DNA of 64,000 nucleotides, taken from the NCBI RefSeq assembly GCF_003403075.1, contig NZ_CP031557.1, forward strand, positions 2,728,001-2,792,000. Reading direction: 5' to 3'. Positions 4,002 to 51,589 of this stretch are shown one piece after another; within the stretch, counting starts at the first letter, position 1, and every line of letters starts with the position of its first letter. The DNA comes from Flavobacterium psychrotrophum (GTDB taxonomy: Bacteria > Bacteroidota > Bacteroidia > Flavobacteriales > Flavobacteriaceae). The notes under the pieces were generated by a model, which saw only the letters and a list, made by a program, of their open reading frames with translations, did no database searches and was not told the DNA's origin. Made by a program: the position numbers and the translations under genes.

Positions 4002-4859
4002 ATGGGGCAGCTAATATCAGGATCCGGAACTAAATTAATAAGCCTGCAAAATACAGTGGAAAACATTTTGGTTCAGCCCATACGGTTTAGTGAATACAGC
4101 ATAATTTTTGTTGACGGCGGAGAAGGTACTTTTTATTCAGATTTTGGAGCATTTACCTTTAACGGCCCTATGCTTTTTTTTGCCACCCCAATGCAGCTAA
4201 TTTACATTGAAGCGGCAATTGCCATACAATATACTGTGCTTCAATTTCACGGCGACTTTTATTGTATGGAATACCATAGAGAAGAAGTAGCTTGTAATGG
4301 TTTACTGTTTAATAACATATATATAGAGCCATCATTGCAACTTAATCTTGCAGACCATAAGAGCTTTAGCCAGCTTATCAACCAGATAACCGAAGAGTTT
4401 TCTATGCCCACACCGTCGGATATTGTATTGAAATCATTATTGCAACTGTTTCTTGCAAAGTCGAGCCAGGTTAAAAACAGGGAACTGGACAGTGCTGTAA
4501 ACACAATACAGCGCGATGATGAAATGGAGCGTTTTAAGCAACTGCTGGAAACTCATTTCCTTACCCTTCGCAAGCCCTCTGATTATGCCGATCTGCTCAT
4601 TATGGCTCCTAACACGCTTACCAAAAGGTGTAGCAAATACTTTAAAAAAACACCATCGCAGCTCATCACAGAGCGTCTTATAGTAGAAGCTAAAAAGCAA
4701 TTGCACCAAACACGAAAAACGATTAAGGAGATAGCGTATGCCCTTAACTTTCAGGATGAATTTTACTTTAGCCGTGTTTTCAAGAAATATACTAACGAAT
4801 CTCCCCAAACCTTTAGAGACAAAACAGGCATATCTATAGTGGCAGATTTGTACAGGTAA
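4002..4859 (+). CDS. AraC-family transcriptional regulator
   Basis: 285 aa. The N-terminal half is a ligand-binding domain without a strong signature (FVDGGEGTFYSDFGAFTFNGPMLFF resembles a cupin strand pair). The C-terminal half has the AraC HTH pair: SDYADLLIMAPNTLTKRCSKYF and KTIKEIAYALNFQDEFYFSRVFKKYTNESPQTFR. A TAAATTTG -7 box lies at 3968-3975. It sits directly upstream of the DUF417 gene (70 bp, with a new TAACTTTG box at 4899-4906), an arrangement reminiscent of an AraC regulator (RclR) next to a DUF417 protein (RclC) in the enterobacterial reactive-chlorine response; that parallel is inference. Confidence 0.85.
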   Translation: MGQLISGSGTKLISLQNTVENILVQPIRFSEYSIIFVDGGEGTFYSDFGAFTFNGPMLFFATPMQLIYIEAAIAIQYTVLQFHGDFYCMEYHREEVACNGLLFNNIYIEPSLQLNLADHKSFSQLINQITEEFSMPTPSDIVLKSLLQLFLAKSSQVKNRELDSAVNTIQRDDEMERFKQLLETHFLTLRKPSDYADLLIMAPNTLTKRCSKYFKKTPSQLITERLIVEAKKQLHQTRKTIKEIAYALNFQDEFYFSRVFKKYTNESPQTFRDKTGISIVADLYR

Positions 4860-4898
4860 TATCCTTTTTTGTCCATGTTTCAGGGTGTATGCCCAATG

Positions 4899-4906
4899 TA
4901 ACTTTG
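4899..4906 (+). promoter_or_regulatory. -7 box of DUF417 gene
   Basis: TAACTTTG, 24 bp before the ATG at 4930. Upstream, TGTCCATG (4870) and TGCCCAATG (4890) are 20 bp apart and could be half-sites for the adjacent AraC protein, but the similarity is weak. Confidence 0.5.
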
Positions 4907-5493: not shown

Positions 5494-5515
5494 GAGTTTT
5501 AAACCGTAACGTGAT

Positions 5516-5574
5516 TCTGTGCTATTCTTCCTGAAAAATGAAACATCCTGCGGCAAACAGGCAACCTAACTTTG
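5516..5574 (+). promoter_or_regulatory. Promoter with shared AraC-type operator (AhpD-like operon)
   Basis: TCTGTGCTATT (5516-5526), then TGAAACATC in phase 21 bp later (5539-5547), then TAACTTTG (5567-5574). Distance from the first block to the -7 box is 51 bp, as in three other promoters of this window. No -33 TTTG is present. Confidence 0.65.
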
Positions 5575-5619
5575 CTATATCAAATTGAAATAATCAATAA
5601 CATTAAAAAATTAATAATC

Positions 5620-6159
5620 ATGAAAACAATTAATGTACCAACTAAAGAACAGGTAAGTGAACAATCACAACAATTATTTGAAGCCATTTCTAAAAAAATG
5701 GGTAAAGTGCCAAACCTTTATGCTACTATTGGATATTCTGCAAATGCGCTCAAGGGCATACTGGAGTTTGAAGAAGCTTTTAGCCACAGTGCATTTAGCG
5801 CAAAAGAGCGTGAGGGCATTAATCTTGTAGTATCTCAGGTTAACGACTGTAATTACTGTCTTGCAGCACACACCATGCTTGCCGGGCTTAAAGGCTTTAA
5901 AGCCGATGAAATTATAGCCATGCGTAAAGGTTTTTCTGCCGATGCAAAATTTGAAACTGCACTGCAACTTGCAAAAGCAATAGCTGAAAATAAAGGTGCT
6001 GCTGATGCAGAGCTAAAAGAAGCCTTTTTTAATGTGGGTTATACCGAAGCAGCACTTATTGACCTGATTGGTATTATCACCGTTCGCACTTTTACAAACT
6101 ACGTGTATGCGCAAACAGAAATCCCTGTTGATTTTCCTGCTGCACCGGCACTTAACTAA
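5620..6159 (+). CDS. AhpD-like / carboxymuconolactone decarboxylase family protein
   Basis: 179 aa, cytoplasmic. It carries the redox motif NDCNYCLAAHTML (CxxC followed by His, about residues 68-80), the signature of AhpD-type alkylhydroperoxidase-like members rather than true decarboxylases, so a peroxidase/disulfide role is more likely than ring decarboxylation. Start chosen at MKTINVPT because a longer reading would begin at TTG 5572 inside the -7 box. The alpha/beta hydrolase gene follows after 29 bp, forming an operon. Expression is presumably controlled by the AraC-type operator at 5516. Confidence 0.85.
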   Translation: MKTINVPTKEQVSEQSQQLFEAISKKMGKVPNLYATIGYSANALKGILEFEEAFSHSAFSAKEREGINLVVSQVNDCNYCLAAHTMLAGLKGFKADEIIAMRKGFSADAKFETALQLAKAIAENKGAADAELKEAFFNVGYTEAALIDLIGIITVRTFTNYVYAQTEIPVDFPAAPALN

Positions 6160-6188
6160 TTTAAAACAACACAATAAATTTTTTAACC

Positions 6189-7238
6189 ATGAAAGCTTTA
6201 AATTTAAAACACGCGGTAATAGCACTTGTATTACTAACCGCAAACGTACTAATGGCACAGGAAAGGCCTTATAAAGGAGAAAATGACCCGGAGGTATTTA
6301 CAAAAGTCCAGTCATTTTTAAAAGCGTTAAATTCAGGAGAAGGTAAACCGATGGAACAATTAGGCCCGGCAGATGCCCGCCAGGTATTAGTAGGTGCACA
6401 AAAATCGGTTACCGTTGATTATTCTGGTATTGAAGAATCTGAACGCGTTATTTCTCAAAATGGATATAATGTAAAAATACACATTACAAAGCCTAAGGGG
6501 GCTAAAGCTAATGCTCCCGTATTTATTTTTATTCATGGTGGCGGATGGGTTTTAGGAGACTATCCTACACACCGCAGGTTAGTGCGCGACCTGGTTGTAG
6601 AAAGCGGAGCTGTAGCAGTATTCCCTGATTACAGCCCTTCTCCTGAGGCTAAATATCCTACAGCGATTAATGAAATTTATGCAGCTACTGAGTGGGTATC
6701 AAAAAATGGCAGCGAAATAGGAGTTAATGGTAAAAACCTTGCCGTTGTGGGCAACAGTGTAGGTGGTAACATGGCGGCTGTAGTAGCCCTTATGGCAAAA
6801 GATAAAAAAGGCCCTGAGATTAAATTGCAGGTGTTGCTATGGCCGGTAACCGATGCCAATTTTGAAACACCTTCTTACAATGCGTATGCAGACGGCAGGT
6901 TCCTGACTAAAAATATGATGAAATGGTTTTGGGACAGCTACCTTCCGGACGCTGAAAAAAGAAAAGAAATTTATGCCTCTCCTTTGCAGGCCAGTGTAGC
7001 GCAACTTAAAGGTTTACCACCAGCCCTTGTACAAACTGCCGAAAATGACGTATTGCGAGATGAAGGCGAGGCTTATGCCAGAAAACTTGACCAGGCAGGA
7101 GTACCTGTAACATTAACACGATACGGAGGGCTGATACATGACTATGGACTACTAAATCCAATAGCAGATGTACCTGCAATAAAAACAGCCATATTACAAG
7201 CGGCAACCGTGATAAAAAGTAGTTTGGCTACGAAATAA
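6189..7238 (+). CDS. Secreted alpha/beta hydrolase (HSL-type esterase)
   Basis: 349 aa with an N-terminal signal peptide (LVLLTANVLMA-Q). The oxyanion motif HGGGWVLGD and the nucleophile elbow GNSVGGN mark a hormone-sensitive-lipase-type carboxylesterase; ENDVLRDEGEAY supplies the acid and the IHDYG stretch the histidine, so the triad looks complete. It acts outside the cytoplasm on an unknown ester. It is second in the AhpD-like operon and ends at a strong bidirectional terminator (7254-7293). Confidence 0.85.
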   Translation: MKALNLKHAVIALVLLTANVLMAQERPYKGENDPEVFTKVQSFLKALNSGEGKPMEQLGPADARQVLVGAQKSVTVDYSGIEESERVISQNGYNVKIHITKPKGAKANAPVFIFIHGGGWVLGDYPTHRRLVRDLVVESGAVAVFPDYSPSPEAKYPTAINEIYAATEWVSKNGSEIGVNGKNLAVVGNSVGGNMAAVVALMAKDKKGPEIKLQVLLWPVTDANFETPSYNAYADGRFLTKNMMKWFWDSYLPDAEKRKEIYASPLQASVAQLKGLPPALVQTAENDVLRDEGEAYARKLDQAGVPVTLTRYGGLIHDYGLLNPIADVPAIKTAILQAATVIKSSLATK

Positions 7239-7253
7239 AATCAAATTATATAT

Positions 7254-7293
7254 AACAAAAAAAGATAAGCCGGGATGCTTATCTTTTTTTGTT
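7254..7293. terminator. Bidirectional terminator
   Basis: A perfect 17-bp stem, ending GATAAGC on one side and starting GCTTATC on the other, with loop CGGGAT and A/T runs at both ends, between converging genes (hydrolase ending 7238, AraC ending 7305). Confidence 0.9.
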
Positions 7294-7304
7294 ATGTGCA
7301 ATAT

Positions 7305-8219
7305 TTATGCTTGTGCTTTATACTGTTGTTTGTATTGTACTGGGGTGTGACCAACTACTTTTTTAAATAACCTTGTAAAATAGGATGGCGTTTCAAAGCC
7401 AAGGTCGTAGGCTATTTGCGCCACATTATTATCGCTGCTTAATAACAGGTTTTTTGCTTCTTTTATAAGGTAGATGTGGATATGGTCTAAGGCTGTTTTG
7501 CCGGTTTCCTGTTTTAAAACATCACTTAGATAACGTGGCGATATGTTGAGTTTATCGGCAAGGTAATTAACTGTTGGAAGCCCCTGGTTTTGGTGAAGCA
7601 GTTTTTCAAAATATCCTCCTAAAAGATCCTGAAATTTTTTTAAAGTGGTTCCTGATACGTTGGTGCTGCGATTAATGAACTGTCTTTTGTAAAATCTGTC
7701 CGAATACTTTAAAACAGCGTCTATATGCGACAGGATAATATCACGGCTAAGTTCATCCTGGCTGGCTTCATGTTCGGCGCGCATCTTATAGTATAAATCC
7801 CAAATTACGGTTTCTTCCTGTGGCGAAAGGTGCAATGCCTCGTTAATTTCGTATTCAAAGTAGCCATACTTTTTTATCTGTTCATGCAGGTGGTGCCCTG
7901 ACAGATAGTCTTCATGAAAGAACATTATAAAACCTTTTTCGGCAAACTGTACATTACTTACTTCAATAATTTGCCTCGGTTTAACAAAAACCATAGAGCC
8001 ATTGTCATTATCATACTTGGTCTTACCATACAACATATAGCCTTCTTTGATTTTTTTGAGTGCTATCATATAGAAGTCTCCGGTAAAACGGTCTTCACCT
8101 ACAGAATATGTCATTAATTCTTTACAGGTCATCATCGTCACAAGCGGATGCAGAGGTGGTTCAAAACCGCTTTTATCATGTAACTCAGTGATCGATTTGT
8201 AGTGTGTAATTTTTTCCAT
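7305..8219 (-). CDS. AraC-family regulator (paralogue A)
   Basis: 304 aa. N-terminal sensing domain (about 1-180) with FYMIALKKIKEGYMLYGKTKYD and MVFVKPRQIIEV; C-terminal AraC domain with LADKLNISPRYLSDVLKQET (first HTH) and VAQIAYDLGFETPSYFTRLF (second HTH). It is closely related along its whole length to the product of 12264-13160, and the first recognition helix (SPRYLSD) is identical. It diverges from the MFS gene at 8425, whose promoter holds the shared operator. A TAATTTTG -7 box for this gene lies at 8267-8274 (minus). Likely a regulator of the local regulon; ligand unknown. Confidence 0.88.
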   Translation of the reverse strand: MEKITHYKSITELHDKSGFEPPLHPLVTMMTCKELMTYSVGEDRFTGDFYMIALKKIKEGYMLYGKTKYDNDNGSMVFVKPRQIIEVSNVQFAEKGFIMFFHEDYLSGHHLHEQIKKYGYFEYEINEALHLSPQEETVIWDLYYKMRAEHEASQDELSRDIILSHIDAVLKYSDRFYKRQFINRSTNVSGTTLKKFQDLLGGYFEKLLHQNQGLPTVNYLADKLNISPRYLSDVLKQETGKTALDHIHIYLIKEAKNLLLSSDNNVAQIAYDLGFETPSYFTRLFKKVVGHTPVQYKQQYKAQA

Positions 8220-8266
8220 AGTGAGGTATGTTGTCGTTGGTTTTTATTCTATAAGCGAAAAGTAAT

Positions 8267-8274
8267 CAAAATTA
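8267..8274 (-). promoter_or_regulatory. -7 box of AraC paralogue A
   Basis: TAATTTTG on the minus strand, 48 bp upstream of the ATG at 8219. Confidence 0.5.
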
Positions 8275-8334
8275 TCCAAGACTACAAAAAAGAATAAATC
8301 TTACATAATGGAGAGTATGGTAAACTTACGTATA

Positions 8335-8393
8335 TCTGTGCTATTTCTCACTACTTATGAACCATTTTGCTAATTGCGCTACTGGTAATTTTG
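8335..8393 (+). promoter_or_regulatory. Promoter with shared AraC-type operator (MFS gene)
   Basis: TCTGTGCTATT (8335-8345) and TGAACCATT (8358-8366) are half-sites 21 bp apart; TAATTTTG follows at 8386-8393, exactly 51 bp from the start of the first block. The intervening bases (CTC..TAC..ATGAAC) are also conserved with the other copies. Confidence 0.7.
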
Positions 8394-8424
8394 ATATATC
8401 AAATAAGCATAATTATTAAATATC

Positions 8425-9630
8425 ATGAAAAATCAAAAACTCGAATTTTTGCATATAAGCAGCTTGTTAGCCTTTGTACTTATACCCCTGGGTGGCCTTA
8501 CCACAGATATTTATATCCCATCATTACCTTCTATGGCACATCAACTTAATGTATCGGTTGAAGCGGTGCAGTTATCATTGCTTATTTTTATGATAAGCTC
8601 CGGTATAAGCCAGTTGTTTATAGGTAGTGTACTGGATAGTTTTGGCCGTTACAAAATTAATATCGCAGCACTTGTATTATTTGCAATGGCAAGTTTTACT
8701 ATCGCTTTAGTTCCTGATATTTACCTGATTTATATAATGCGGGCTGTACAGGGCATAACAGTATCCCTGATAATAGTGGGCAAGCGGGCATTTTTTGTAG
8801 ATATGTACACCGGCCAGGCATTAAAGAACTATACCAGCCTTTTCTCTATTGTATGGGCCACAGCGCCAATAATCGCACCTTTTATTGGTGGCTACCTGCA
8901 ACAGGTATTTGGCTGGCAGTCTAACTTTTACCTGCTCGGAATTTTGACAGCCCTTGTACTTGTGCTCGAACTTAAATTTACAGGAGAATCTTTAAAAACA
9001 TTTCAGCCATTTAATTGGGAAAGGATATCTAAGGTTTATAACACCATGCTGGGCACACCCGATTTTACCCTGGGCTTGCTGATTATAGGGTTCACGTATT
9101 CATTACTTGTTATATATGGCATGGTAAGCCCTTTTATAATTGAGAAAGTATTTGGCTATACCCCTGTCACAACAGGCTATAGCTCCCTGCTCTCTGGCGT
9201 AGCACTAATGAGTGGCGGCCTTATTAGTAAATTGTTATTAAACAAACCGTTGTTTGCAAAACTTAATGTGGCAATTGCACTTCAGGTTATAGCAGTCTTA
9301 GCTATGTGGATCACTACGCTGTACACTAATAATATTATTATACTGATAGGCTTTACTATGCCCATCCACCTTATGTCGGGCTTTATATTCAATAACGTTT
9401 ATGCCTACAGCCTGCAGCGTTTTACACAAAATGCAGGCACTGCCAGCGGCCTTACCGGAGGAGGTATTTATGTAATAAGCTCCATTGTGGGTTACGGGAT
9501 GATTAATGCCTTTAGCGTAAAAACTGTTCATGCCTTATCAACTGTAAACCTTGGTATAGTGATCGTATTACTATTAACTATTCTTGTATTTAAACACTAT
9601 TCAAAAGCAAGAATAGCTATTACAGACTAA
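8425..9630 (+). CDS. MFS transporter, Bcr/CflA-like drug efflux
   Basis: 401 aa with twelve hydrophobic segments. The first segment ends GGLTTDIYIPSLPSMAHQLN, typical of the Bcr/CflA drug:proton antiporters (a charged residue in TM1 followed by YLPSLP), and motif A appears as GSVLDSFGRYK between TM2 and TM3. It probably exports a small toxic compound across the inner membrane. The neighbouring SDRs, hydrolases and AraC genes and the shared operator suggest co-induction by the same compound. Substrate not predictable. Confidence 0.88.
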   Translation: MKNQKLEFLHISSLLAFVLIPLGGLTTDIYIPSLPSMAHQLNVSVEAVQLSLLIFMISSGISQLFIGSVLDSFGRYKINIAALVLFAMASFTIALVPDIYLIYIMRAVQGITVSLIIVGKRAFFVDMYTGQALKNYTSLFSIVWATAPIIAPFIGGYLQQVFGWQSNFYLLGILTALVLVLELKFTGESLKTFQPFNWERISKVYNTMLGTPDFTLGLLIIGFTYSLLVIYGMVSPFIIEKVFGYTPVTTGYSSLLSGVALMSGGLISKLLLNKPLFAKLNVAIALQVIAVLAMWITTLYTNNIIILIGFTMPIHLMSGFIFNNVYAYSLQRFTQNAGTASGLTGGGIYVISSIVGYGMINAFSVKTVHALSTVNLGIVIVLLLTILVFKHYSKARIAITD

Positions 9631-9637
9631 ACGTTGT

Positions 9638-9696
9638 TTTGTGCTATTACTGCCTACAAATGAACTATTCCGCACAGTGCTGCACATCTAACTTTG
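9638..9696 (+). promoter_or_regulatory. Promoter with shared AraC-type operator (SDR1 operon)
   Basis: TTTGTGCTATT (9638-9648) and TGAACTATT (9661-9669), 21 bp apart; TAACTTTG at 9689-9696, again 51 bp from the first block. The box and the following CTATATCAAATT are identical to those before the AhpD-like operon. Confidence 0.7.
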
Positions 9697-9732
9697 CTAT
9701 ATCAAATTACAACACTTAAAAACATATACATC

Positions 9733-10557
9733 ATGTCTAAAACAATTTTAATTACAGGAGCATCAAGGGGTTTTGGTAAACTATGGGCAGAAGCCTTTTT
9801 AAAACGTGGCGATAAAGTAGCCGCTACAGCCCGTAACCTTTCTGACCTTGATGATCTAGTTTCAACTTATGGAAGTAACATCCTTCCGGTTAAGCTTGAC
9901 GTTACAAAGCGAGAAGCTGTTAACGAGGCTATAACCACTATAACTAATTACTTTGGCAGTATAGATGTGTTAATAAACAATGCGGGATACGGCTTGTTTG
10001 GTACTGTAGAAGAAACTACAGAAGAACAGGCAAGGGCGCAAATGGAAACCAACTTTTTTGGGTTGCTGTGGGTAACACAGGCCGTACTACCGGTTATGAG
10101 GGCACAAAAAAGCGGTCATATAATACAGGTTTCAAGTTTCCTGGGCTTAACCACATTGCCAATGCTTGGCTTATATAACGCTTCTAAATTTGCTGTTGAA
10201 GGTTTAAGCGAAACTATAGCTACCGAAGTTGCACACCTGGGCATTAAAGTTACCCTTATAGAACCTAATGGCTATGCTACCGACTGGGCAGGCGCATCGG
10301 CTACGCAAACACATGACGGTATTGAAGATTACACTATCATACGTGAGGCTTTTGCCACATCGGGAGAGAATCCTGATACGTGGGGCAAACCCGAAGCTAC
10401 GGTTGATATAATGGTTAGCCTAACCGATAATCCTAACCCTCCGCAAAGGCTTTTATTTGGAAAAATAGCCTATCAGTCCGTAAAACAGGCATATACCGAA
10501 AAACTTACAGCTATTGAAGCATGGAAAGAAGTGAGCATTGCTGCCCACGGACATTAA
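9733..10557 (+). CDS. Short-chain dehydrogenase/reductase (SDR1)
   Basis: 274 aa classical SDR. NAD(P)-binding TGASRGFG at the N-terminus, NNAGYG, catalytic Ser in VSSFLG and YNASKFAVEG (Tyr-x-x-x-Lys) are all present; the basic residue in the glycine loop (ASRG) points to NADP(H). Substrate unknown. Start set at the ATG at 9733, since a longer reading begins within the -7 box. First gene of an operon with 10599, 11375 and the AraC gene 12264 (gaps of 41-46 bp). Very similar to SDR2 at 13347, so the pair is a local duplication. Confidence 0.9.
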   Translation: MSKTILITGASRGFGKLWAEAFLKRGDKVAATARNLSDLDDLVSTYGSNILPVKLDVTKREAVNEAITTITNYFGSIDVLINNAGYGLFGTVEETTEEQARAQMETNFFGLLWVTQAVLPVMRAQKSGHIIQVSSFLGLTTLPMLGLYNASKFAVEGLSETIATEVAHLGIKVTLIEPNGYATDWAGASATQTHDGIEDYTIIREAFATSGENPDTWGKPEATVDIMVSLTDNPNPPQRLLFGKIAYQSVKQAYTEKLTAIEAWKEVSIAAHGH

Positions 10558-10598
10558 TTTTAACCACCTTATAAAAATCAACATTAAAATATTCAATC

Positions 10599-11330
10599 AT
10601 GAAAACTTCAACCCAACAATTAGTAAACAAAGTTATTGCTGCCAACGGTGGCGCAAATGCAACGGAATATAAAACAGTAAGACTACACACCAATATAGGC
10701 GGCGTGGTATGGGATATAAAAGGGCATACAGGTGCACTCGCAGATGTAGAATTTACAGGATCGCTCACTGAACAAAAAGCTTCCTGGAAAAACATTTTTA
10801 AACGTGGATATATTTCAACATTCGAGCCCGGTAAAGTAGAACTCCTTGATGAAAATGGTGGCCTTAAAGGTGAGTTAATTAATCCAAAGGATTCTTTTAA
10901 AGGGTATACTGTAGAAACGCCATGGTCTGCTGAACAGGTAATTTATTTTTCCAGCTATGCAACCTGGAATTACGCTACTACACCTTTCAATTTCCTTGTT
11001 CCGGGGGTAGAAGTTAATCAGCTGGAAGACTGGGATGAAAAGGGGGAGATCCTTCAAAGGCTTGAAGTTATTTACCCTGACGGTTTTACAACCCACAGCA
11101 AAAGACAGGTATTTTACTTTGATGCCAATGGACTTTTAAAACGCCATGATTACTGGCCTGTGGTGCTGGGTGGCTCTTCTGCAACGCAAATTATTGAAGA
11201 TTATAAAGATTTTCAGGGTATTAAAACGGGCACTAAACGAAGGATTTATATTCTTAACGATACTGACAACAGCTATCAGACTGACCCCATCTTAGTATCT
11301 ATCGACATCCTTGATGTAAGTTTCGAATAA
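10599..11330 (+). CDS. Hypothetical protein in SDR1 operon
   Basis: 243 aa, no signal peptide or membrane segment. The sequence opens VNKVIAANGG and continues with alternating strands (GVVWDIKGHTGALADVEFTGSL, GYISTFEPGKVELLDENGG), ending with a beta-rich TGTKRRIYILN region. This looks like a LolA/outer-membrane-lipoprotein-carrier-like curved sheet of cytoplasmic type, but the resemblance is structural impression only. I do not recognise the family. Position between an SDR and an alpha/beta hydrolase in one operon suggests it handles the same compound, perhaps as a binding protein. Confidence 0.8.
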   Translation: MKTSTQQLVNKVIAANGGANATEYKTVRLHTNIGGVVWDIKGHTGALADVEFTGSLTEQKASWKNIFKRGYISTFEPGKVELLDENGGLKGELINPKDSFKGYTVETPWSAEQVIYFSSYATWNYATTPFNFLVPGVEVNQLEDWDEKGEILQRLEVIYPDGFTTHSKRQVFYFDANGLLKRHDYWPVVLGGSSATQIIEDYKDFQGIKTGTKRRIYILNDTDNSYQTDPILVSIDILDVSFE

Positions 11331-11374
11331 AACCTCATTTAAAATTAACAGACTTCTTTTAAAAACATATAATT

Positions 11375-12217
11375 ATGAATACTCAAGATTATACAGCCGC
11401 TACCGCACCTACGCAATATATAAATGTAAACGGTATAAATTACGCTTATCGCAGGTTTGGCAAAACAGGAGGAATCCCGGTTGTAGGGTTTCAGCACTTT
11501 ACCGGTACGCTTGATAACTGGGACCCTATTATTCTTGAAGGCCTGGCAAAGGAACGCGAGGTACTTATTTTTGATAATACCGGGGTAGGCAATACATCTG
11601 GTGAAACGCCGGACAATGTATTGGAAATGACACATGACGCGGTAGACTTTATTAAAGCTTTAGGCCTTACTAAAATTGATGTACTTGGATTTTCCCTTGG
11701 AGGGTTTATTGCACAATATCTGGGTGTACTTTACCCTGAACTTGTAAGGAAACTGATTATAGTTGGGGCGGCGCCACAAGGTTCAAAAGTTTTAGAAGGT
11801 TTCCCGCAGTTGATTTACAAAGCCATGCAGAAAGAGCCTGCTGAACGGTTTTTGTACATTTTCTTTACAGCGTCTGATGAAAGCCGGGCTAAAGGCAAAG
11901 AAACATTGCAACGCTTATTTGAAAGAACAATTGACCGTGATAACGAAAGTAAAGAACAGGCTGTCATGGCACAGCTAACAGCAATAACCAATTGGGGATC
12001 TGACCCTGTCACCATAGACCTCAAAAAAATACAGCATCCCGCATTAATTGTGCAGGGCAGTAACGATAAAATGATGGATTCTGACAATTCATACCTGTTG
12101 TTTAAACAATTGCCTAATGCTGTATTAACCTATTACCCCGATGCTGCACACGGCTCTTTTTATCAATACCCTGAACGGTTTGTAAACCAGGCAAACGATT
12201 TTTTAAATGCCTTTTAA
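11375..12217 (+). CDS. Alpha/beta hydrolase
   Basis: 280 aa, cytoplasmic. Typical fold markers: nucleophile elbow GFSLGGF (about residue 109-115), acid in QGSNDKMMDSDN and the C-terminal DAAHGSFY histidine. Closest in style to the haloperoxidase/esterase-like hydrolases often annotated 'alpha/beta fold hydrolase'. Third gene of the SDR1 operon, 44 bp after 10599-11330 and 46 bp before the AraC gene. Substrate unknown. Confidence 0.88.
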   Translation: MNTQDYTAATAPTQYINVNGINYAYRRFGKTGGIPVVGFQHFTGTLDNWDPIILEGLAKEREVLIFDNTGVGNTSGETPDNVLEMTHDAVDFIKALGLTKIDVLGFSLGGFIAQYLGVLYPELVRKLIIVGAAPQGSKVLEGFPQLIYKAMQKEPAERFLYIFFTASDESRAKGKETLQRLFERTIDRDNESKEQAVMAQLTAITNWGSDPVTIDLKKIQHPALIVQGSNDKMMDSDNSYLLFKQLPNAVLTYYPDAAHGSFYQYPERFVNQANDFLNAF

Positions 12218-12263
12218 TTAATTGGTTGTGTTTACCAGCACAAGGGTTTAAAAACTCTAAAAA

Positions 12264-13160
12264 ATGAAACATTATAAAACACTTAGTGAAATGCACCGTG
12301 ATAATGGATGGCCACCACCGGAACATCCGTTGTTAAGTATTGTAAGTTGCCAGAAAGATTGCCCGCTTGGAGACCGTGAATTTACAAGCAATTGTTATAT
12401 GATTGGTTTTAAAAAATTAAAATCGGGCGTAATACTCTATGGCCGCACAAGCTATGACCATAGCAGTGGTGTTATGATGTTTGTAAAGCCCCGTCAGATT
12501 ATCGAAATGAAAAACCTTGAATTTGAAGAAGATGGTTTTATGCTACTCATTCATGAAGATTATTTTAACGGCCACGAAATGCATAACAGCATAGAAAAAT
12601 ACGGCTTCTTTGAATATGAAATTAACGAGGCATTACATTTATCGCCAGCCGAAGAGGAAATTATACTTAGCCTGCACCAAAAGATTGTAAGGGAATATTA
12701 CAATACTACAGATGAATACAGCCGGGAAATTATATTGAGCCATATCGATTCTATACTAACGTATGCCCAACGTTTTTTTAAAAGGCAGTTTATAAACCGT
12801 ACAGACTTTTCAGGCAAAACAGTTACAAAATTTAATGAGGCTTTTAAAGCGTATATGAACAGTGATTTACCCAAGGAAAATGGGCTTCCTTCTGTAAACT
12901 ATCTGGCAGAAGGTTTAAATCTTTCACCACGCTATCTAAGCGACCTCCTTAAGCAGGAAACGGGTAAAACGGCTATAGACCTCATACACATACATCTTGT
13001 AACGATGGCTAAAAACATGCTGGTAACCGGCAATAATAATATTAGCGAGATAGCCTACCTGCTTGGCTTTGAGAACAGTTCTTATTTTACCCGCCTGTTT
13101 AAAAAACAGGTTGGGCTAAGGCCAATGGAATTCAAAAGAATAAAAATGGGACAGGCATAA
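12264..13160 (+). CDS. AraC-family regulator (paralogue B)
   Basis: 298 aa, last gene of the SDR1 operon and just upstream of SDR2. Sensing half with CYMIGFKKLKSGVILYGRTSYD and MMFVKPRQIIEM; DNA-binding half with LAEGLNLSPRYLSDLLKQET and ISEIAYLLGFENSSYFTRLF. It is a clear paralogue of 7305-8219, with the same SPRYLSD recognition helix, which fits the two proteins sharing the TGnnCTATT operator. Being encoded in a target operon implies autoregulation (positive feedback if an activator). Confidence 0.88.
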   Translation: MKHYKTLSEMHRDNGWPPPEHPLLSIVSCQKDCPLGDREFTSNCYMIGFKKLKSGVILYGRTSYDHSSGVMMFVKPRQIIEMKNLEFEEDGFMLLIHEDYFNGHEMHNSIEKYGFFEYEINEALHLSPAEEEIILSLHQKIVREYYNTTDEYSREIILSHIDSILTYAQRFFKRQFINRTDFSGKTVTKFNEAFKAYMNSDLPKENGLPSVNYLAEGLNLSPRYLSDLLKQETGKTAIDLIHIHLVTMAKNMLVTGNNNISEIAYLLGFENSSYFTRLFKKQVGLRPMEFKRIKMGQA

Positions 13161-13253
13161 TTCGTCAACTCCCCAAAGCACATTTTATAATAATACTATA
13201 AAGACTCGCAGAGCTTTATCTATTATCATCATTTATAAAACAGCATACGTAAA

Positions 13254-13312
13254 TCTGTGCTATTTCTCCCCACATATGGACTATTCTCCCGCCTATAGTC
13301 GGAATAAATTTG
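13254..13312 (+). promoter_or_regulatory. Promoter with shared AraC-type operator (SDR2)
   Basis: TCTGTGCTATT (13254-13264), TGGACTATT (13277-13285) 21 bp later and TAAATTTG (13305-13312), 51 bp from the first block. Fourth copy with identical geometry. Confidence 0.7.
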
Positions 13313-13346: not shown

Positions 13347-14165
13347 ATGAAAACAATTTTTATTACAGGAGCATCTAGAGGTTTTGGAAAACTTTGGTTA
13401 GAGGCATTTTTAAAACGCGGTGATAATGTAGCTGCTACATCAAGAACAATAGAGGCTTATAAAGACCTGGTATCGCAATACAGTAAACAGTTTTTACCGC
13501 TTCAGCTGGATATAACCGATAAAAAAGCGGTTACCGAAGCAGTTAATAAAGCACATAAACATTTTGGAAGCCTTGATGTAGTTATTAATAACGCTGGTTA
13601 CGGCTTATTTGGCGCTATTGAAGAAGCTGGAGAACAGGAAACTAAAGATATTTTTGAAGCTAACGTTTTTGGTACACTGTGGGTTACACAGGCAGCCCTT
13701 CCAATTTTCCGTGAGCAGAAAAGCGGACACATCATTCAGCTTTCAAGCGTACTGGGGGTATGGACGCTGCCTACACTTGGTATATACAACGCTACTAAAT
13801 TTGCTGTTGAGGGCTTAAGCGAAGCATTAGCCAGCGAAGTAGCTGAATTTGGCATCAAAGTAACAATTATTGAACCAAATGGCTACACAACAGATTTTGG
13901 TGGCGCATCTGCTGTGCAAAGCGAAGCGATACCAGCTTATAACAATGTAAAATCTGCCCTGGGCGATACTGAAGGATTGTTACCCGAAGATTATGGTAAA
14001 CCGGAAGCTACAGTACCCGCAATCCTTAAACTAATAGACAGCCCGGAACCACCATTACGTCTTTTCTTAGGTAAGTTAGGATACACCAAAACTAAACGTG
14101 TATATGCAGAGAAACTTGCTACATGGGAATCTTGGGAGGATGTAGCTGTTGCGGCACACGGTTAA
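13347..14165 (+). CDS. Short-chain dehydrogenase/reductase (SDR2)
   Basis: 272 aa classical SDR with TGASRGFG, NNAGYG, LSSVLG (catalytic Ser) and YNATKFAVEG (Tyr/Lys). Collinear with SDR1 over the full length, including IEPNGYTTDFGGASA and the C-terminal VAVAAHG, so the two arose by duplication together with their promoter element. Monocistronic: own promoter and a terminator at 14191-14236. Substrate unknown; the duplication may give different substrate range or dose. Confidence 0.9.
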   Translation: MKTIFITGASRGFGKLWLEAFLKRGDNVAATSRTIEAYKDLVSQYSKQFLPLQLDITDKKAVTEAVNKAHKHFGSLDVVINNAGYGLFGAIEEAGEQETKDIFEANVFGTLWVTQAALPIFREQKSGHIIQLSSVLGVWTLPTLGIYNATKFAVEGLSEALASEVAEFGIKVTIIEPNGYTTDFGGASAVQSEAIPAYNNVKSALGDTEGLLPEDYGKPEATVPAILKLIDSPEPPLRLFLGKLGYTKTKRVYAEKLATWESWEDVAVAAHG

Positions 14166-14247: not shown

Positions 14248-14308
14248 GATATGTATAAGTCATGCCGTGATATGTATAAATTATTAATTATGAATAGTCG
14301 GAACTTTG
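14248..14308 (+). promoter_or_regulatory. SDR3 promoter with a distinct 21-bp direct repeat
   Basis: GATATGTATAA at 14248-14258 is repeated exactly at 14269-14279 (21 bp apart). The downstream -7 box is GAACTTTG (14301-14308), one base off TAnnTTTG. The second repeat ends where a -33 box would lie. Same geometry as the other five operators but a different half-site, which suggests a different AraC protein, most simply the product of 15289-16197. Confidence 0.65.
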
Positions 14309-16515: not shown

Positions 16516-17601
16516 TTAATCTTGATTGCTATCCGGCTTCTCTTCTTCAAAAATATCGTTGAACTTTTGCTGCAACAGTTCCTTTTCTGGAAGTTGTGTC
16601 CGGTATTTTGCAACCATAGTTGGGGAAAGACTACGGCTCAATGAATATTCAACTACCTGATTATTCTTGTCTTTACAAAGCAGGATACCAATACTTGGGT
16701 TCTCATGTTCCTTCTTGACATCCCTGTCCAGTGCTTCAAGGTAAAAATTAAGCTGCCCGATATGCTCCGGTTTGAATTTACCCGCTTTCAGCTCAAAGGC
16801 AACCAGGCATTGTAAACCACGATGATAAAACAATAAATCAATGTAAAAATCACTATCGCCGACCATTAACTTATACTCGTTACCGATAAAAATGAAATCA
16901 CGTCCAAGTTCTAAGATGAAGTCTTTCATCCGGTTTAGTAATCCGTTTTGTAAATCACCTTCACTATGCTTCTCGGGCAGATTTAGAAAATCAAAAACAT
17001 AAGAATCCTTGAAAACCTGCTCTATGTCAGTTTTTGAATTTGACTGAATAACGGATTTTGAATTTTCACTCGTCATTGCCCGTTCAAATAGACTGGAAGA
17101 AATCTGACGGTCAAGTTCACGAACGCTATAGCTTTCCCGGATTGATAATTTAATGTAAAACTCTCTTTCTTCCATTAGCTTACATCGCGAGAAAATAGTC
17201 ATGTGGTGTGTCCAGCTAATTCTTACAATAATACTCTCTTTAATATCTATTGCTTTAAATTGTGTCATCAGTGATGACACAATTGCAGATTCTTGATTTT
17301 CAGAAGATAAGGAATTACTTGAACTCATTATTAATTTATGATTTTCAGGATACGATTCGTAAAATTGTATCATCCTATACAGGCCTCTGCTGTTGAAACC
17401 TTTGAGTTCCGGATTATTGCGCTGAATGTAAGCCGACAATTCAGTAACAGTTTTATCTCCCCAGTCGGCATGGTTTAATTTATTACTTATATACCTACCT
17501 ACATTCCAGTATAGATTTATCAATTCAGCATTTACAGCTTTAATCGCGTTTGTACGTGATTGTTTTATAATTTGAACTATTTCTATAAAATTATTTTCCA
17601 T
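16516..17601 (-). CDS. DUF1016 (YhcG-type) PD-(D/E)XK nuclease
   Basis: 361 aa. N-terminal DUF1016 winged-helix-like region with LINLYWNVGRYI and GFNSRGLYRMIQFYESYP; C-terminal nuclease region with DFYIDLLFYHRGLQCLVAFELKAG, containing the Asp and Glu-x-Lys of a PD-(D/E)XK active site, then GQLNFYLEALD. Such proteins travel with mobile elements and restriction loci; cellular function is not established. Three bases separate it from the integrase gene, so they form one transcript. The middle (about 95-110, SSSNSLSSENQESAIVSS) is a low-complexity linker found as an insertion. Confidence 0.88.
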   Translation of the reverse strand: MENNFIEIVQIIKQSRTNAIKAVNAELINLYWNVGRYISNKLNHADWGDKTVTELSAYIQRNNPELKGFNSRGLYRMIQFYESYPENHKLIMSSSNSLSSENQESAIVSSLMTQFKAIDIKESIIVRISWTHHMTIFSRCKLMEEREFYIKLSIRESYSVRELDRQISSSLFERAMTSENSKSVIQSNSKTDIEQVFKDSYVFDFLNLPEKHSEGDLQNGLLNRMKDFILELGRDFIFIGNEYKLMVGDSDFYIDLLFYHRGLQCLVAFELKAGKFKPEHIGQLNFYLEALDRDVKKEHENPSIGILLCKDKNNQVVEYSLSRSLSPTMVAKYRTQLPEKELLQQKFNDIFEEEKPDSNQD

Positions 17602-17604
17602 GAT

Positions 17605-18939
17605 TTAAACTTTTTTAAGATGAGGATTCCCGTGAGACAGCGCCAGCAGTTCTTTCAATTCATGTATTTCCTGCTGCATTTTAGATATGATGTCCGGTGA
17701 CGGTGGCTCAGGTGTAGTTTCCTTACTGCTCAGCCTCAACTGTAACTGTTTCATTTCCCTTCCTACCGATTGCTGCTCGGTAATGGCATACTCTTCGGTC
17801 TGTTTTACCGATTGGTGTCCCAACAGTTCCTTCACCACATGAATAGGTACATCATTATTGAGCGTTACGGTGCTCCCGAAGGTGCGCCTGGCCTTATGGG
17901 TGTTTAATGTGCTTTCGATGCCGCACAGCGTAGCTACTTCTTTAAGGTACTCATTCATTTTCTGATTGGAGGTTACCGGCAATACCGATTCCCTTTGCAG
18001 GCAGATAGGATGGTCTTTGTAGCGTTCCATGACTGCTTTGGCTTTCGGTAACAAAGGCACATTAATAGTCCCACCGGTTTTCTGCCTTTCACTGATAATC
18101 CACATTTCCCCATCAATACCTAACTTAATATCGGATTTCTTCAGGTTGAAGGCATCAATGTAGGCCAGCCCGGTATAGCATTGAAATACGAAGATGTCAC
18201 GTACTGTGGTAAGCCGTTGAGTGGAGAAGGTATGGTTTTCCAATAGCACAAGTTCATGGGCGCTCAATGGCTTTTTATGGATCTTGACTTTCTTCGCTTT
18301 GAAACGCTTGAATGGGTCAGTTGCTATAATCTCTTTATCAATTGCGAGTAACACAATCTTCTTGAAATTGGTAATGTACTTCACCGCTGTGTTGTGGCTG
18401 ATGTTTTTAACTGTCTTCAAATAAAACTCATAATCCTTTACAAACTCAAAGTTGAGCTCGCGAAAATCCATATCCTCCACATTGTACTTAAAGCGGAGGT
18501 ATTCTTTAAGGTGCTTCTTGGCTACCTCAAAACGTACGTGTGTACCGATTGCATATTCGCCTCTCTCGACCAAGGCTAGTAATTCATCATTGTGCTTTTG
18601 GAACTCCTGCACAATCTTGCTCTGCGATGCTGCTTTGCCCATCACATAATCCATAAGCTTTTCGCTGGTCACAGGTTTACCGGCATACATCAAATCGGTG
18701 CGGTACTGCTGGATTTTCATCTCAAGGGTTTCCAGGAAGAAATTCACGGTACGTGCATCTTCTTTGTTGCCCGTTGCACGCTCTTTGGACTGATCCCATC
18801 GGGTGGCATCCCACCGGCGGCGGGTAGAGGTTTCTTTTGGTACTCCGTCAACAGTAATCCTCAAGTAGATTAACCTGTCATTTGTCTCTTTTCGCGGGGT
18901 CTTCAGGAAGAAGGTTAACCCAAAACTTGTTGCTAACAT
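17605..18939 (-). CDS. Tyrosine-type site-specific integrase
   Basis: 444 aa Bacteroidetes integrase: arm-binding N-terminus (FFLKTPRKETNDRLIYLRITVDG), SAM-like core-binding region (about 110-215) and catalytic domain with HKARRTFGS (His-x-x-Arg box II), LLGHQSVKQTEEYA (second His and nucleophile Tyr). As in CTnDOT-type integrases, the usual box I Arg (TGLR) is replaced (TGLAY). A short C-terminal coiled-coil-like tail follows. It is transcribed away from tRNA-Val and leads an operon with the DUF1016 gene; it marks a small integrated element. The 46-nt repeat cluster upstream (19039) may be its binding site. Confidence 0.9.
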   Translation of the reverse strand: MLATSFGLTFFLKTPRKETNDRLIYLRITVDGVPKETSTRRRWDATRWDQSKERATGNKEDARTVNFFLETLEMKIQQYRTDLMYAGKPVTSEKLMDYVMGKAASQSKIVQEFQKHNDELLALVERGEYAIGTHVRFEVAKKHLKEYLRFKYNVEDMDFRELNFEFVKDYEFYLKTVKNISHNTAVKYITNFKKIVLLAIDKEIIATDPFKRFKAKKVKIHKKPLSAHELVLLENHTFSTQRLTTVRDIFVFQCYTGLAYIDAFNLKKSDIKLGIDGEMWIISERQKTGGTINVPLLPKAKAVMERYKDHPICLQRESVLPVTSNQKMNEYLKEVATLCGIESTLNTHKARRTFGSTVTLNNDVPIHVVKELLGHQSVKQTEEYAITEQQSVGREMKQLQLRLSSKETTPEPPSPDIISKMQQEIHELKELLALSHGNPHLKKV

Positions 18940-50247: not shown

Positions 50248-51180
50248 ATGGCAAAATCTGTTTTAACCATTACCCTAAATCCTACTGTAGACAAAAGCAC
50301 TACAGTAGAAAACCTGAAGCCCGAGAAAAAACTACGTTGTACTGCACCTAAATATGAACCGGGCGGCGGCGGCATTAATGTGTCGCGCGGTTTGGTAAGA
50401 CTGGGTATAGATTCTGTTGCACTTTTTACTTCGGGTGGGCGAACCGGAGCGTTATTACAGGAACTTTTAGAAGAAGAAAAGGTATCCGTAAAGACGGTTA
50501 GCACTAAAGCCGAAACCCGTGAGAATTTTATTGTTGTAGATACATCACACAACGAGCAGTACCGCTTTGGTATGCCGGGCGAAGATATTACTGTTGACGA
50601 AGCTGATGAGATATTTAAAACCATTATTACCATATCCCCATTCCCTGAAATTACCGTTATAAGCGGCAGCCTGCCCCCGGGTATTGAAGCCGCATATATA
50701 GGTAAACTGGTAAGAGCTCTTAAAGAAAAAGGTTCGCTGGTTATTGCAGATACATCTGGCGATGCGCTGGAGGAAGTGCTTAAAGAAGGTGTATACCTGC
50801 TTAAACCTAACATTGGCGAATTGGCAACACTCACAGGACAAAAGGAACTGGATAACGACAGCGCAGACGAAGCCGCAAAACAACTTGTAGACGAAGGTAA
50901 AGCTGAGATCGTAGTAGTATCGTTAGGGCCACAGGGCGCTTACCTGGTTAGCAAAGACGAAACTATACATGTACCTGCACCATCAGTAAAAAAGCTTAGT
51001 ACCGTAGGTGCCGGAGACAGCATGGTAGCCGGTATGGTCAGCATACTGGCAAAGGGCGGCACACTTACCCAAATGGCACGCATGGGCGTAGCCTGCGGAT
51101 CTGCCGCTACAATGAGCAGTGGTACCGGGCTGTTTAGTAAAGAAAATGCCGAGAAGCTGTATAAGTGGTTATCTAAATAA
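50248..51180 (+). CDS. PfkB-type hexose/phosphofructokinase
   Basis: 310 aa of the ribokinase-like PfkB family. N-terminal GGGGINVSRGLVRLG, GSLPPGIEAAYIGKLV, and the C-terminal signature LSTVGAGDSMVAGMVS (catalytic Asp, anion hole) are present. Matches the 1-phosphofructokinase/tagatose-6-phosphate kinase/LacC branch; the exact sugar is not determined. No PTS genes nearby. Confidence 0.9.
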   Translation: MAKSVLTITLNPTVDKSTTVENLKPEKKLRCTAPKYEPGGGGINVSRGLVRLGIDSVALFTSGGRTGALLQELLEEEKVSVKTVSTKAETRENFIVVDTSHNEQYRFGMPGEDITVDEADEIFKTIITISPFPEITVISGSLPPGIEAAYIGKLVRALKEKGSLVIADTSGDALEEVLKEGVYLLKPNIGELATLTGQKELDNDSADEAAKQLVDEGKAEIVVVSLGPQGAYLVSKDETIHVPAPSVKKLSTVGAGDSMVAGMVSILAKGGTLTQMARMGVACGSAATMSSGTGLFSKENAEKLYKWLSK

Positions 51181-51195
51181 GTTCTTAAGAATTTT

Positions 51196-51290
51196 AAAAG
51201 GCAAGAGGCGGAAGGCAAATGAAATAATTGTCCCTGACATTTTAATTTCTTTCTCTCATGTCTTCTGCCTTATGCCTTATGCCTCTTCAC
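51196..51290. repeat. Imperfect GGCA/TGCC intergenic repeat
   Basis: AAAAGGCAAGAGGCGGAAGGCAA faces CTTCTGCCTTATGCCTTATGCCTCTT about 60 bp later, forming a long imperfect inverted repeat between two genes. It resembles dispersed intergenic repeats of Flavobacterium rather than a terminator. Confidence 0.45.
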
Positions 51291-51307
51291 TTAAATTCCA
51301 AAAATCT

Positions 51308-51589
51308 ATGACATACGATTACGCTAAAGACATTTTCGACGAACTGAAAAACTATGAAGGAAAAGCTACTTTTGAAGGTAGCGAAACGGGTATTGATTAT
51401 TTTGTGCTATTACCAAAAGAAGAACTGGACGATTTTAGCCTGGCCGGATTTCTAGAACAATATACTGCAAATACCAGCTTTGAAGTAGAGGGCAACCACA
51501 GCCTCGCTTACACGATTATCGGCATTAATGCTACGCTGCCCGACTATACCGATGATGCCGATTACCTTGCAAAACTCACGGTTTGGTAG
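51308..51589 (+). CDS. Small conserved hypothetical
   Basis: 93 aa starting at MTYDYAKDIFDELKNYEGKATF. Acidic and strand-rich (GIDYFVLLPKEELDDFSLAGFLEQY), ending DYTDDADYLAKLTVW. No recognised motif. It lies downstream of a repeat tract, in the same direction as the PfkB gene but 127 bp apart. Confidence 0.7.
   Translation: MTYDYAKDIFDELKNYEGKATFEGSETGIDYFVLLPKEELDDFSLAGFLEQYTANTSFEVEGNHSLAYTIIGINATLPDYTDDADYLAKLTVW

Follow-up and report, generated by a model that had tools for sequence, protein, structure and literature searches.

The window analyzed here is a 64,000-nucleotide stretch of the Flavobacterium psychrotrophum genome (NZ_CP031557.1, positions 2,728,001 to 2,792,000, forward strand). 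It contains a cluster of genes encoding two AraC-type regulators, A7305 and A12264, together with short-chain dehydrogenases (SDRs), hydrolases, an AhpD-like protein, and a transporter, and four promoters of this cluster share a direct repeat at a fixed distance from the −7 box, TAnnTTTG. It is highly probable that this repeat represents two 17-bp bipartite half-sites with a 21-bp period, which are bound in tandem by AraC proteins of the A12264/A7305 subfamily and replace the −33 element. The genes of the cluster are as follows (positions are those of the window).

5620 to 6159, + strand: AhpD-like protein (CMD family, AhpD core domain)
6189 to 7238, + strand: alpha/beta hydrolase (Abhydrolase_3; ABH3), in one run with the AhpD-like gene
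7305 to 8219, − strand: AraC-type regulator A7305
8425 to 9630, + strand: MFS transporter, Bcr/CflA-like (167.7 bits, under the model cut-off of 200.9)
9733 to 10557, + strand: SDR1, short-chain dehydrogenase (PRK08263 subfamily)
10599 to 11330, + strand: 243-amino-acid protein with no Pfam or NCBIfam match at E 0.001
11375 to 12217, + strand: alpha/beta hydrolase (Abhydrolase_1)
12264 to 13160, + strand: AraC-type regulator A12264, final gene of the SDR1 run
13347 to 14165, + strand: SDR2

SDR1, the 243-amino-acid protein, the second hydrolase, and A12264 form a single run with intergenic gaps of 41 to 46 bp. SDR1 and SDR2 are 59% identical, and the two regulators are 55% identical overall and 60% identical over the last 100 residues. 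Both A12264 and A7305 (298 and 304 amino acids) match HTH_18 and HTH_AraC above cut-off and so have the AraC-type DNA-binding domain with two helix-turn-helix (HTH) motifs; the AraC-type HTH is all that Pfam finds in them, and the N-terminal part has no Pfam match. An AlphaFold2 model of A12264 (pLDDT 81, pTM only 0.57, 36 sequences) places the recognition helices at residues 222 to 233 (HTH1) and 272 to 283 (HTH2). In Foldseek searches, the sensor part is matched to the regulatory domains of RhaR and AraC (5u93 and 2arc) and the remainder matches AraC-type DNA-binding domains; the full-length matches, ToxT and Rns, superpose poorly (TM about 0.3). The predicted fold of the sensor part is AraC/RhaR-like, as in AraC-like sensor/dimer domains, and this part probably binds a small molecule.

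A tandem repeat at four promoters

An 11-letter block, T(C/T)TGTGCTATT, begins at 5516, 8335, 9638, and 13254, before the CMD, MFS, SDR1, and SDR2 genes, and the corresponding −7 boxes begin at 5567, 8386, 9689, and 13305. The distance from block start to box is thus 51 bp at all four promoters, as the first-pass annotation of this DNA had claimed. That annotation also described a TGnnCTATT half-site 21 bp further on; a second block does lie 21 bp downstream of the first TG in every case, but its letters (in promoter order, TGAAACATC, TGAACCATT, TGAACTATT, and TGGACTATT) fit TGnnCTATT exactly in just two. A CGT at constant register, 8 nucleotides 5′ of the first TG (5510, 8329, 9632, and 13248), had gone unmentioned and is present at all four. 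The visible block may then be only the HTH2 portion of a 17-bp half-site, and most of the partly conserved middle reported earlier may belong to the HTH1 portion of the second half-site. The spacer between the second block and the −7 box is 19 bp at each promoter, and the four spacer sequences are mutually dissimilar. The putative operators and their promoter boxes are as follows.

5510 to 5547, + strand: tandem AraC operator of the CMD-ABH3 operon (CGT at 5510; HTH2 boxes at 5518-5526 and 5539-5547)
5567 to 5574, + strand: −7 box TAACTTTG of the CMD promoter
8329 to 8366, + strand: tandem AraC operator of the MFS gene (CGT at 8329; HTH2 boxes at 8337-8345 and 8358-8366)
8386 to 8393, + strand: −7 box TAATTTTG of the MFS promoter
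9632 to 9669, + strand: tandem AraC operator of the SDR1 operon (CGT at 9632; HTH2 boxes at 9640-9648 and 9661-9669)
9689 to 9696, + strand: −7 box TAACTTTG of the SDR1 promoter
13248 to 13285, + strand: tandem AraC operator of SDR2 (CGT at 13248; HTH2 boxes at 13256-13264 and 13277-13285)
13305 to 13312, + strand: −7 box TAAATTTG of the SDR2 promoter

Following the −7 box, outside the operator, the letters TATATCAAAT are common to the CMD, MFS, and SDR1 promoters (5567-5586, 8386-8405, and 9689-9708).

The whole genome (4,843,008 bases) was searched with the composite pattern TGTGCTATT-N12-TGNNCNATT-N19-TANNTTTG, allowing up to 3 mismatches and using the reversed pattern as a control. The four matches found are exactly the four promoters (0, 0, 0, and 2 mismatches), and the reversed pattern has three. 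The genome-wide motif search proposed in the first-pass annotation thus confines the composite, −7 spacing included, to this cluster. Exact matches to the block by itself number 21 genome-wide, compared with 15 for the reversed control, and at up to 2 mismatches the window has 57 matches, compared with 60 expected. Since its frequency is near chance, only the composite is informative, and the block by itself was dropped as evidence. For example, the window match at 51401 falls within an open reading frame (51119-51589), lacks a composite match, and was discarded as a chance occurrence.

A second scan prescribed no letters other than TG. Among the 93 TAnnTTTG boxes of the window, TG..TG repeats with at least 6 of 9 letters equal in this register were found four times at a lag of 21 (boxes 4899, 8386, 9689, and 13305, 5′ of DUF417, MFS, SDR1, and SDR2) and not at all at lags of 12 to 20 and 22 to 32, apart from one at lag 26. 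The CMD repeat has 4 of 9 letters equal and falls under the cut.

Putative operators and regulators in related genomes

Relatives of the regulators were sought in one genome per species (84,980 species) with a profile of A12264, A7305, and four relatives. This gave 184 loci with a relative, and the breadth of the operator across the phylum rests on the best 80, whose record titles include Flavobacterium, Chryseobacterium, Pedobacter, Mucilaginibacter, Desertivirga, Dyadobacter, Runella, Spirosoma, Chitinophaga, Niastella, and others. In 73 of the 80 loci, the AraC gene is preceded on its own strand by a gene like SDR1/SDR2, at a distance of at most 4.5 kb and mostly adjacent; in the other seven, no SDR was found within that distance, and some of the contigs start there. 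The window pattern, at up to 2 mismatches, has 17 matches (12 loci) in these 80 loci with gaps of 12 and 19 and three with gaps of 12 and 20; all other gap pairs have a mean of 0.024 matches and a largest value of 2.

The SDR promoters were also scored with a consensus, allowing spacers of 18 to 21 and a second lettering that had been spotted by eye. An operator score of at least 21 is reached by 69 of the 73 SDR promoters and by 24 of 1,038 other upstream regions of the same loci, a contrast that is descriptive because the consensus was derived from those 73 promoters themselves; the fixed-pattern gap result is cleaner. The spacer to the −7 box is 19 in 55 of the 69 scoring promoters and 20 in 14. 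Four SDR promoters score below 21 (L074, L105, L125, and L140). The element lies 5′ of a misread SDR start in L074 and 5′ of the first of two SDR genes in L105, and it was not detected by the scoring scan in L125 and L140. Ten other upstream regions score at least 23, and all belong to genes of like clusters; in two cases the gene is an AraC gene that no SDR precedes, a hint of autoregulation. The operators occur in two letterings, TGTGCTATT ... TGRRCTATT or CGGGTTATT and TGTATCANT ... TGTATAAAT, and mixtures of these.

In F. akiainvivens (L063), a near relative judging from proteins that are mostly 79 to 92% identical to those of the window, the element is found at the same four promoters (CMD, MFS, SDR1, and SDR2). 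Together with the restriction of the composite to four promoters in F. psychrotrophum, this agrees with the earlier proposal of a single local regulon. Within the genus, a relative of A7305 at E 1e-80 is found in 27 of 299 genomes (F. psychrotrophum included); of the 30 loci from those genomes, 24 carry the element at a score of at least 21, and six are without it. A further SDR-AraC pair, the third of the genome (L200, AraC gene at 3,713,249-3,714,139), has the second lettering, TGTATCAGC/TGTATAAGT, with a spacer of 20.

Operator positions are numbered here from the T of the first TG (position 1; position 0 precedes it). Information of at least 0.7 bit is found at positions −7 to −5, −2, −1, 1-7, 9, 11, 12, 14, 15, 17, 19, 20, 22-28, and 30, and spacer positions 31-48 have at most 0.4 bit (one spacer position had 0.8 when the SDR promoters were scored). 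Conservation is thus concentrated in the half-sites and the −7 box. Covariation between operator letters and protein columns was examined in 90 regulator-operator pairs (74 after removal of 90%-identical ones). The three columns that covary most, out of 194 variable ones, are 273, 276, and 282, all in HTH2 (hypergeometric, 1e-4; helix versus other columns, P = 0.001; spacer-letter control, P = 0.18). The rest of the DNA-binding domain does not differ from the sensor part in this respect (P = 0.49). HTH2 columns pair with positions −2, −1, 4-6, 19-21, 24, and 27, and column 223 in HTH1 pairs with positions −6, −5, 17, and 18; no column pairs with 28-48.

The individual pairings are as follows. 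A G at −6 accompanies R223 in 64 of 72 rows and is present in 1 of 18 rows without it. Residue 273 and letter 4 combine as S273/G (34 of the 90 pairs), P273/A (46), T/T (5), and other (5), and residue 276 and position 24 combine as S276/T (71), T276/G or A (17), and other (2). Both window regulators have R223, S273, and T276. The L200 regulator, which lies outside the set in which the pattern was first noticed, has P273/S276 and the other lettering, matching that pattern. Conserved boxes and covariation fit a bipartite half-site in which the HTH1 box would lie upstream of the HTH2 box. The opposite arrangement, with HTH2 reading the upstream end of the half-site and HTH1 the downstream end, was our first idea and was dropped when a wider profile paired column 223 with the CGT. 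The earlier proposal of control by the paralogous regulators at 12264 and 7305 is supported at the level of their subfamily, given the element before 69 of 73 SDR-AraC pairs and the covariation with the recognition helices.

Proposed mechanism and alternative explanations

In AraC and XylS, HTH1 takes the upstream box and HTH2 the downstream box. Here the upstream CGT box may be read by HTH1 and the downstream TGTGCTATT box by HTH2, with about one helical turn between them. A dimer would occupy two half-sites that follow each other at 21 bp (two turns), its DNA-binding domains being arranged head to tail along the same face of the helix. Between the end of the downstream HTH2 box and TAnnTTTG there are 19 to 20 bp; this end would be at the −33 reading position of the housekeeping sigma factor, so that a bound activator could replace the sigma contact. 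The class II-like geometry suggested in the first-pass annotation is thus borne out as to arrangement. As A12264 is the final gene of the SDR1 run, induction would increase the supply of this regulator. The operator may have spread in this lineage from one SDR-AraC pair to three further promoters; the resulting regulon would comprise oxidoreductases and hydrolases together with an AhpD-like protein and a transporter of the efflux type. Gene content and geometry suggest that this regulon probably handles a foreign or reactive compound.

Several points weigh against this interpretation, in addition to the origin of the scoring consensus mentioned above. The second half-site of the CMD promoter (TGAAACATC) is poor, the exact CGT is found in 44 of the 72 R223 rows, and the HTH1-linked positions −6, −5 and 17, 18 are 23 rather than 21 apart. 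Covariation counts are inflated by kinship, which the hypergeometric and rank tests remove incompletely, and the operators of A7305 (the MFS promoter) and L174 were assigned by adjacency. In independent pairs on the sensor-part tree, nearly every change is in the same direction, but with at most 3 to 4 informative pairs there are too few events to reach significance. Several of the 80 loci are closely related, and two (L092 and L121) share one contig. Across the phylum, the strict pattern is found in only 4 of 296 genomes, all of the same genus, and three of these carry what is, by its letters, the site of another system. The genus-wide pattern search gave 107 matches, spread over 89 of 299 genomes, compared with 5 for the reversed control (both numbers were counted by eye). 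These matches do not support the regulon, because many belong to two other systems or to a recurrent unrelated sequence (TAGGCTATTCTTTT type). Lastly, the argument for activator substitution from the −33 region is weak. The absence of a −33 TTTG, claimed earlier for all four promoters, holds strictly for three; in the MFS promoter, a TTTG ends 16 nucleotides 5′ of the −7 box. Furthermore, a TTTG at a gap of 17 to 22 is found in 0 of 74 operator promoters but is rare in background promoters too (5.8% of 223); the corresponding values for TTG are 2 of 74 and 11.7%.

The regulator could be correctly identified and yet act by repression or looping, with the uninduced protein blocking the polymerase and the class II geometry being only apparent. 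AraC proteins can act as repressors, and a position over the −33 region also suits blocking. However, a register of 19 to 20 bp to the −7 box (69 of 69) and half-sites oriented in tandem are what characterizes activation at known AraC/XylS promoters, and we regard repression as unlikely.

A different AraC-type protein of the genome, which has 62 HTH_18 matches (61 above cut-off), might also read these sites. One example would be a relative of the regulator beside an ExaC-like aldehyde dehydrogenase in other Flavobacterium genomes (L045 to L059 and others), where the TGTGCTATT box is repeated 21 bp apart and 19 bp 5′ of TAnnTTTG, as it is here (perfect in 6 of 15 cases, 1 to 2 mismatches in the remainder). 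The genes at L045, the sole locus family-tested with Pfam and NCBIfam, encode an ExaC-like aldehyde dehydrogenase, a DUF779 protein, and an AraC_N-type regulator. An AraC-like protein of 306 to 307 amino acids is nearby in 14 of the 15 stretches, the one in L045 being of the AraC_N type by Pfam. This is, however, a different AraC subfamily with mostly a single site per genome, and its HTH1 box is TGNAA rather than CGT, whereas the G of CGT tracks R223 of the A12264 family. Moreover, an ExaC-type site would match the composite pattern, yet none was found in this genome. Control by such a protein is accordingly quite improbable.

That promoter pieces were simply duplicated along with the genes, with no shared regulator, agrees with the paralogy of the SDRs and of the regulators and with the letters TAACTTTGCTATATCAAATT common to the CMD and SDR1 promoters from the −7 box onward, but it is very hard to reconcile with unrelated CMD and MFS genes, four dissimilar 19-bp spacers, and like elements with dissimilar spacers before 69 of 73 pairs.

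Putative operators with the same geometry, and known systems

Two more repeats with the same period lie in the window.

14252 to 14281, + strand: tandem repeat TGTATAAGT/TGTATAAAT, 21 bp apart, before SDR3 (14352; region 14248-14308)
4849 to 4878, + strand: tandem repeat TGTACAGGT/TGTCCATGT, 21 bp apart, before DUF417 (4930; region 4849-4906)

The SDR3 repeat has a spacer of 19 to a −7-like GAACTTTG at 14301, which is not TAnnTTTG. It lies beside A15289 (37% and 40% identical to A12264 and A7305) and is probably its site. Manual reading shows this register in L043 as well, and also in L044, where the second copy (TACATACAG) is weaker. The A15289-like gene of L043 (8421-9128) encodes a predicted protein of 235 amino acids without the HTH part, and the L044 copy has 301 amino acids. 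The DUF417 repeat has a spacer of 20 to a −7 box at 4899 and lies beside A4002, the gene end of which (4859) is overlapped by the upstream copy; A4002 is the probable reader. By hand, this repeat is the same in L063 and reads TGTCCATGG/CGTCCATGT, with a spacer of 20, in L069. DUF417 is the family to which RclC belongs.

These two repeats indicate that the geometry is not specific to one regulator. With the CTATT type, there are three differently lettered operators within 10 kb of window. On this ground we tentatively propose, while giving it somewhat less than an even chance, a common rule for Bacteroidota AraC activators across subfamilies with different letters: 17-bp half-sites, a 21-bp tandem, an HTH2 box ending 19 to 20 bp before TAnnTTTG, and a readable code in which HTH1 Arg223 would specify the G of CGT and HTH2 residues 273 and 276 would specify letters 4 and 3. 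When promoter candidates close to 30 of the 62 HTH_18 matches were tested for repeats at different lags, 5 of 51 had at least 8 of 10 letters equal at lag 21, and at most 2 did so at any other lag. This excess is suggestive only, and one weaker repeat on the list is the SDR2 promoter of the present cluster. In L060, L061, and L062, GGGCTATT-like repeats 21 bp apart lie between an HTH_18 protein of about 353 amino acids and a large CHU_C protein, followed by a PorP/SprF protein; the family assignments come from tests of L060 alone. These repeats are perhaps a third operator of AraC type with the same geometry.

The tandem half-sites in a single orientation, and the proposed order of the boxes (HTH1, HTH2 ten bases later, and repeat after 21), are the same as in the class II systems of AraC (araI1-I2) and XylS. 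These differ from the window in half-site letters, in having −35/−10 promoters rather than the Bacteroidota-type TAnnTTTG, and in lacking the arrangement of regulator and SDR in one gene run. According to PMC4514859, XylS at Pm binds TGCA-N6-GGNTA-N6-TGCA-N6-GGNTA, a 21-bp period, the AraC half-site is TAGC-N7-TCCATA (17 bp), and MelR and RhaS bind the upstream half-site more strongly. Such a preference is suggested here by the better-conserved upstream block. For the hybrid two-component systems (HTCS) of Bacteroides, passages of PMC3878776 report predicted motifs that consist of direct repeats, on average 21 bp apart, which are interpreted as dimers spaced by two turns of the helix, and paralogue pairs to which one motif is assigned; unlike the operator described here, these repeats are given no register to a −7 box in those passages. 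HTCS are membrane sensor kinases for polysaccharide genes, whereas the window regulators are one-component proteins beside SDR genes, and the histidine kinase-AraC fusion of HTCS was not found by Pfam in A12264 or A7305. The kind of operator is thus already known from the HTCS repeats (PMC3878776) and the XylS/AraC half-sites (PMC4514859).

The literature searched, which left subscription papers mostly outside, yielded no description of the operator itself, of its regulon, of the pairing of SDR and AraC genes, or of the register to TAnnTTTG. It is our impression, not drawn from a survey, that, polysaccharide loci aside, few operators of AraC-type proteins have been described in Bacteroidota. 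This cluster shows at once the operator, its pairing with a regulator, its register to the promoter type of the phylum, and candidate contact residues, which makes every step accessible to direct testing, and it would provide a case of the operator of a gene pair growing into a four-promoter regulon. If the common rule is true, the targets of very many unstudied Bacteroidota AraC proteins would be readable from sequence.

Two observations concern neighboring genes. The 243-amino-acid protein (10599-11330) is 75 to 82% identical in three relatives, and in L111 an operator-like element (3 mismatches) lies immediately 5′ of its gene. Just 3′ of the AraC-rich region, 16516-18939 encodes a YhcG-type PDDEXK nuclease and a phage-type integrase, and this stretch is perhaps the edge of a mobile island.

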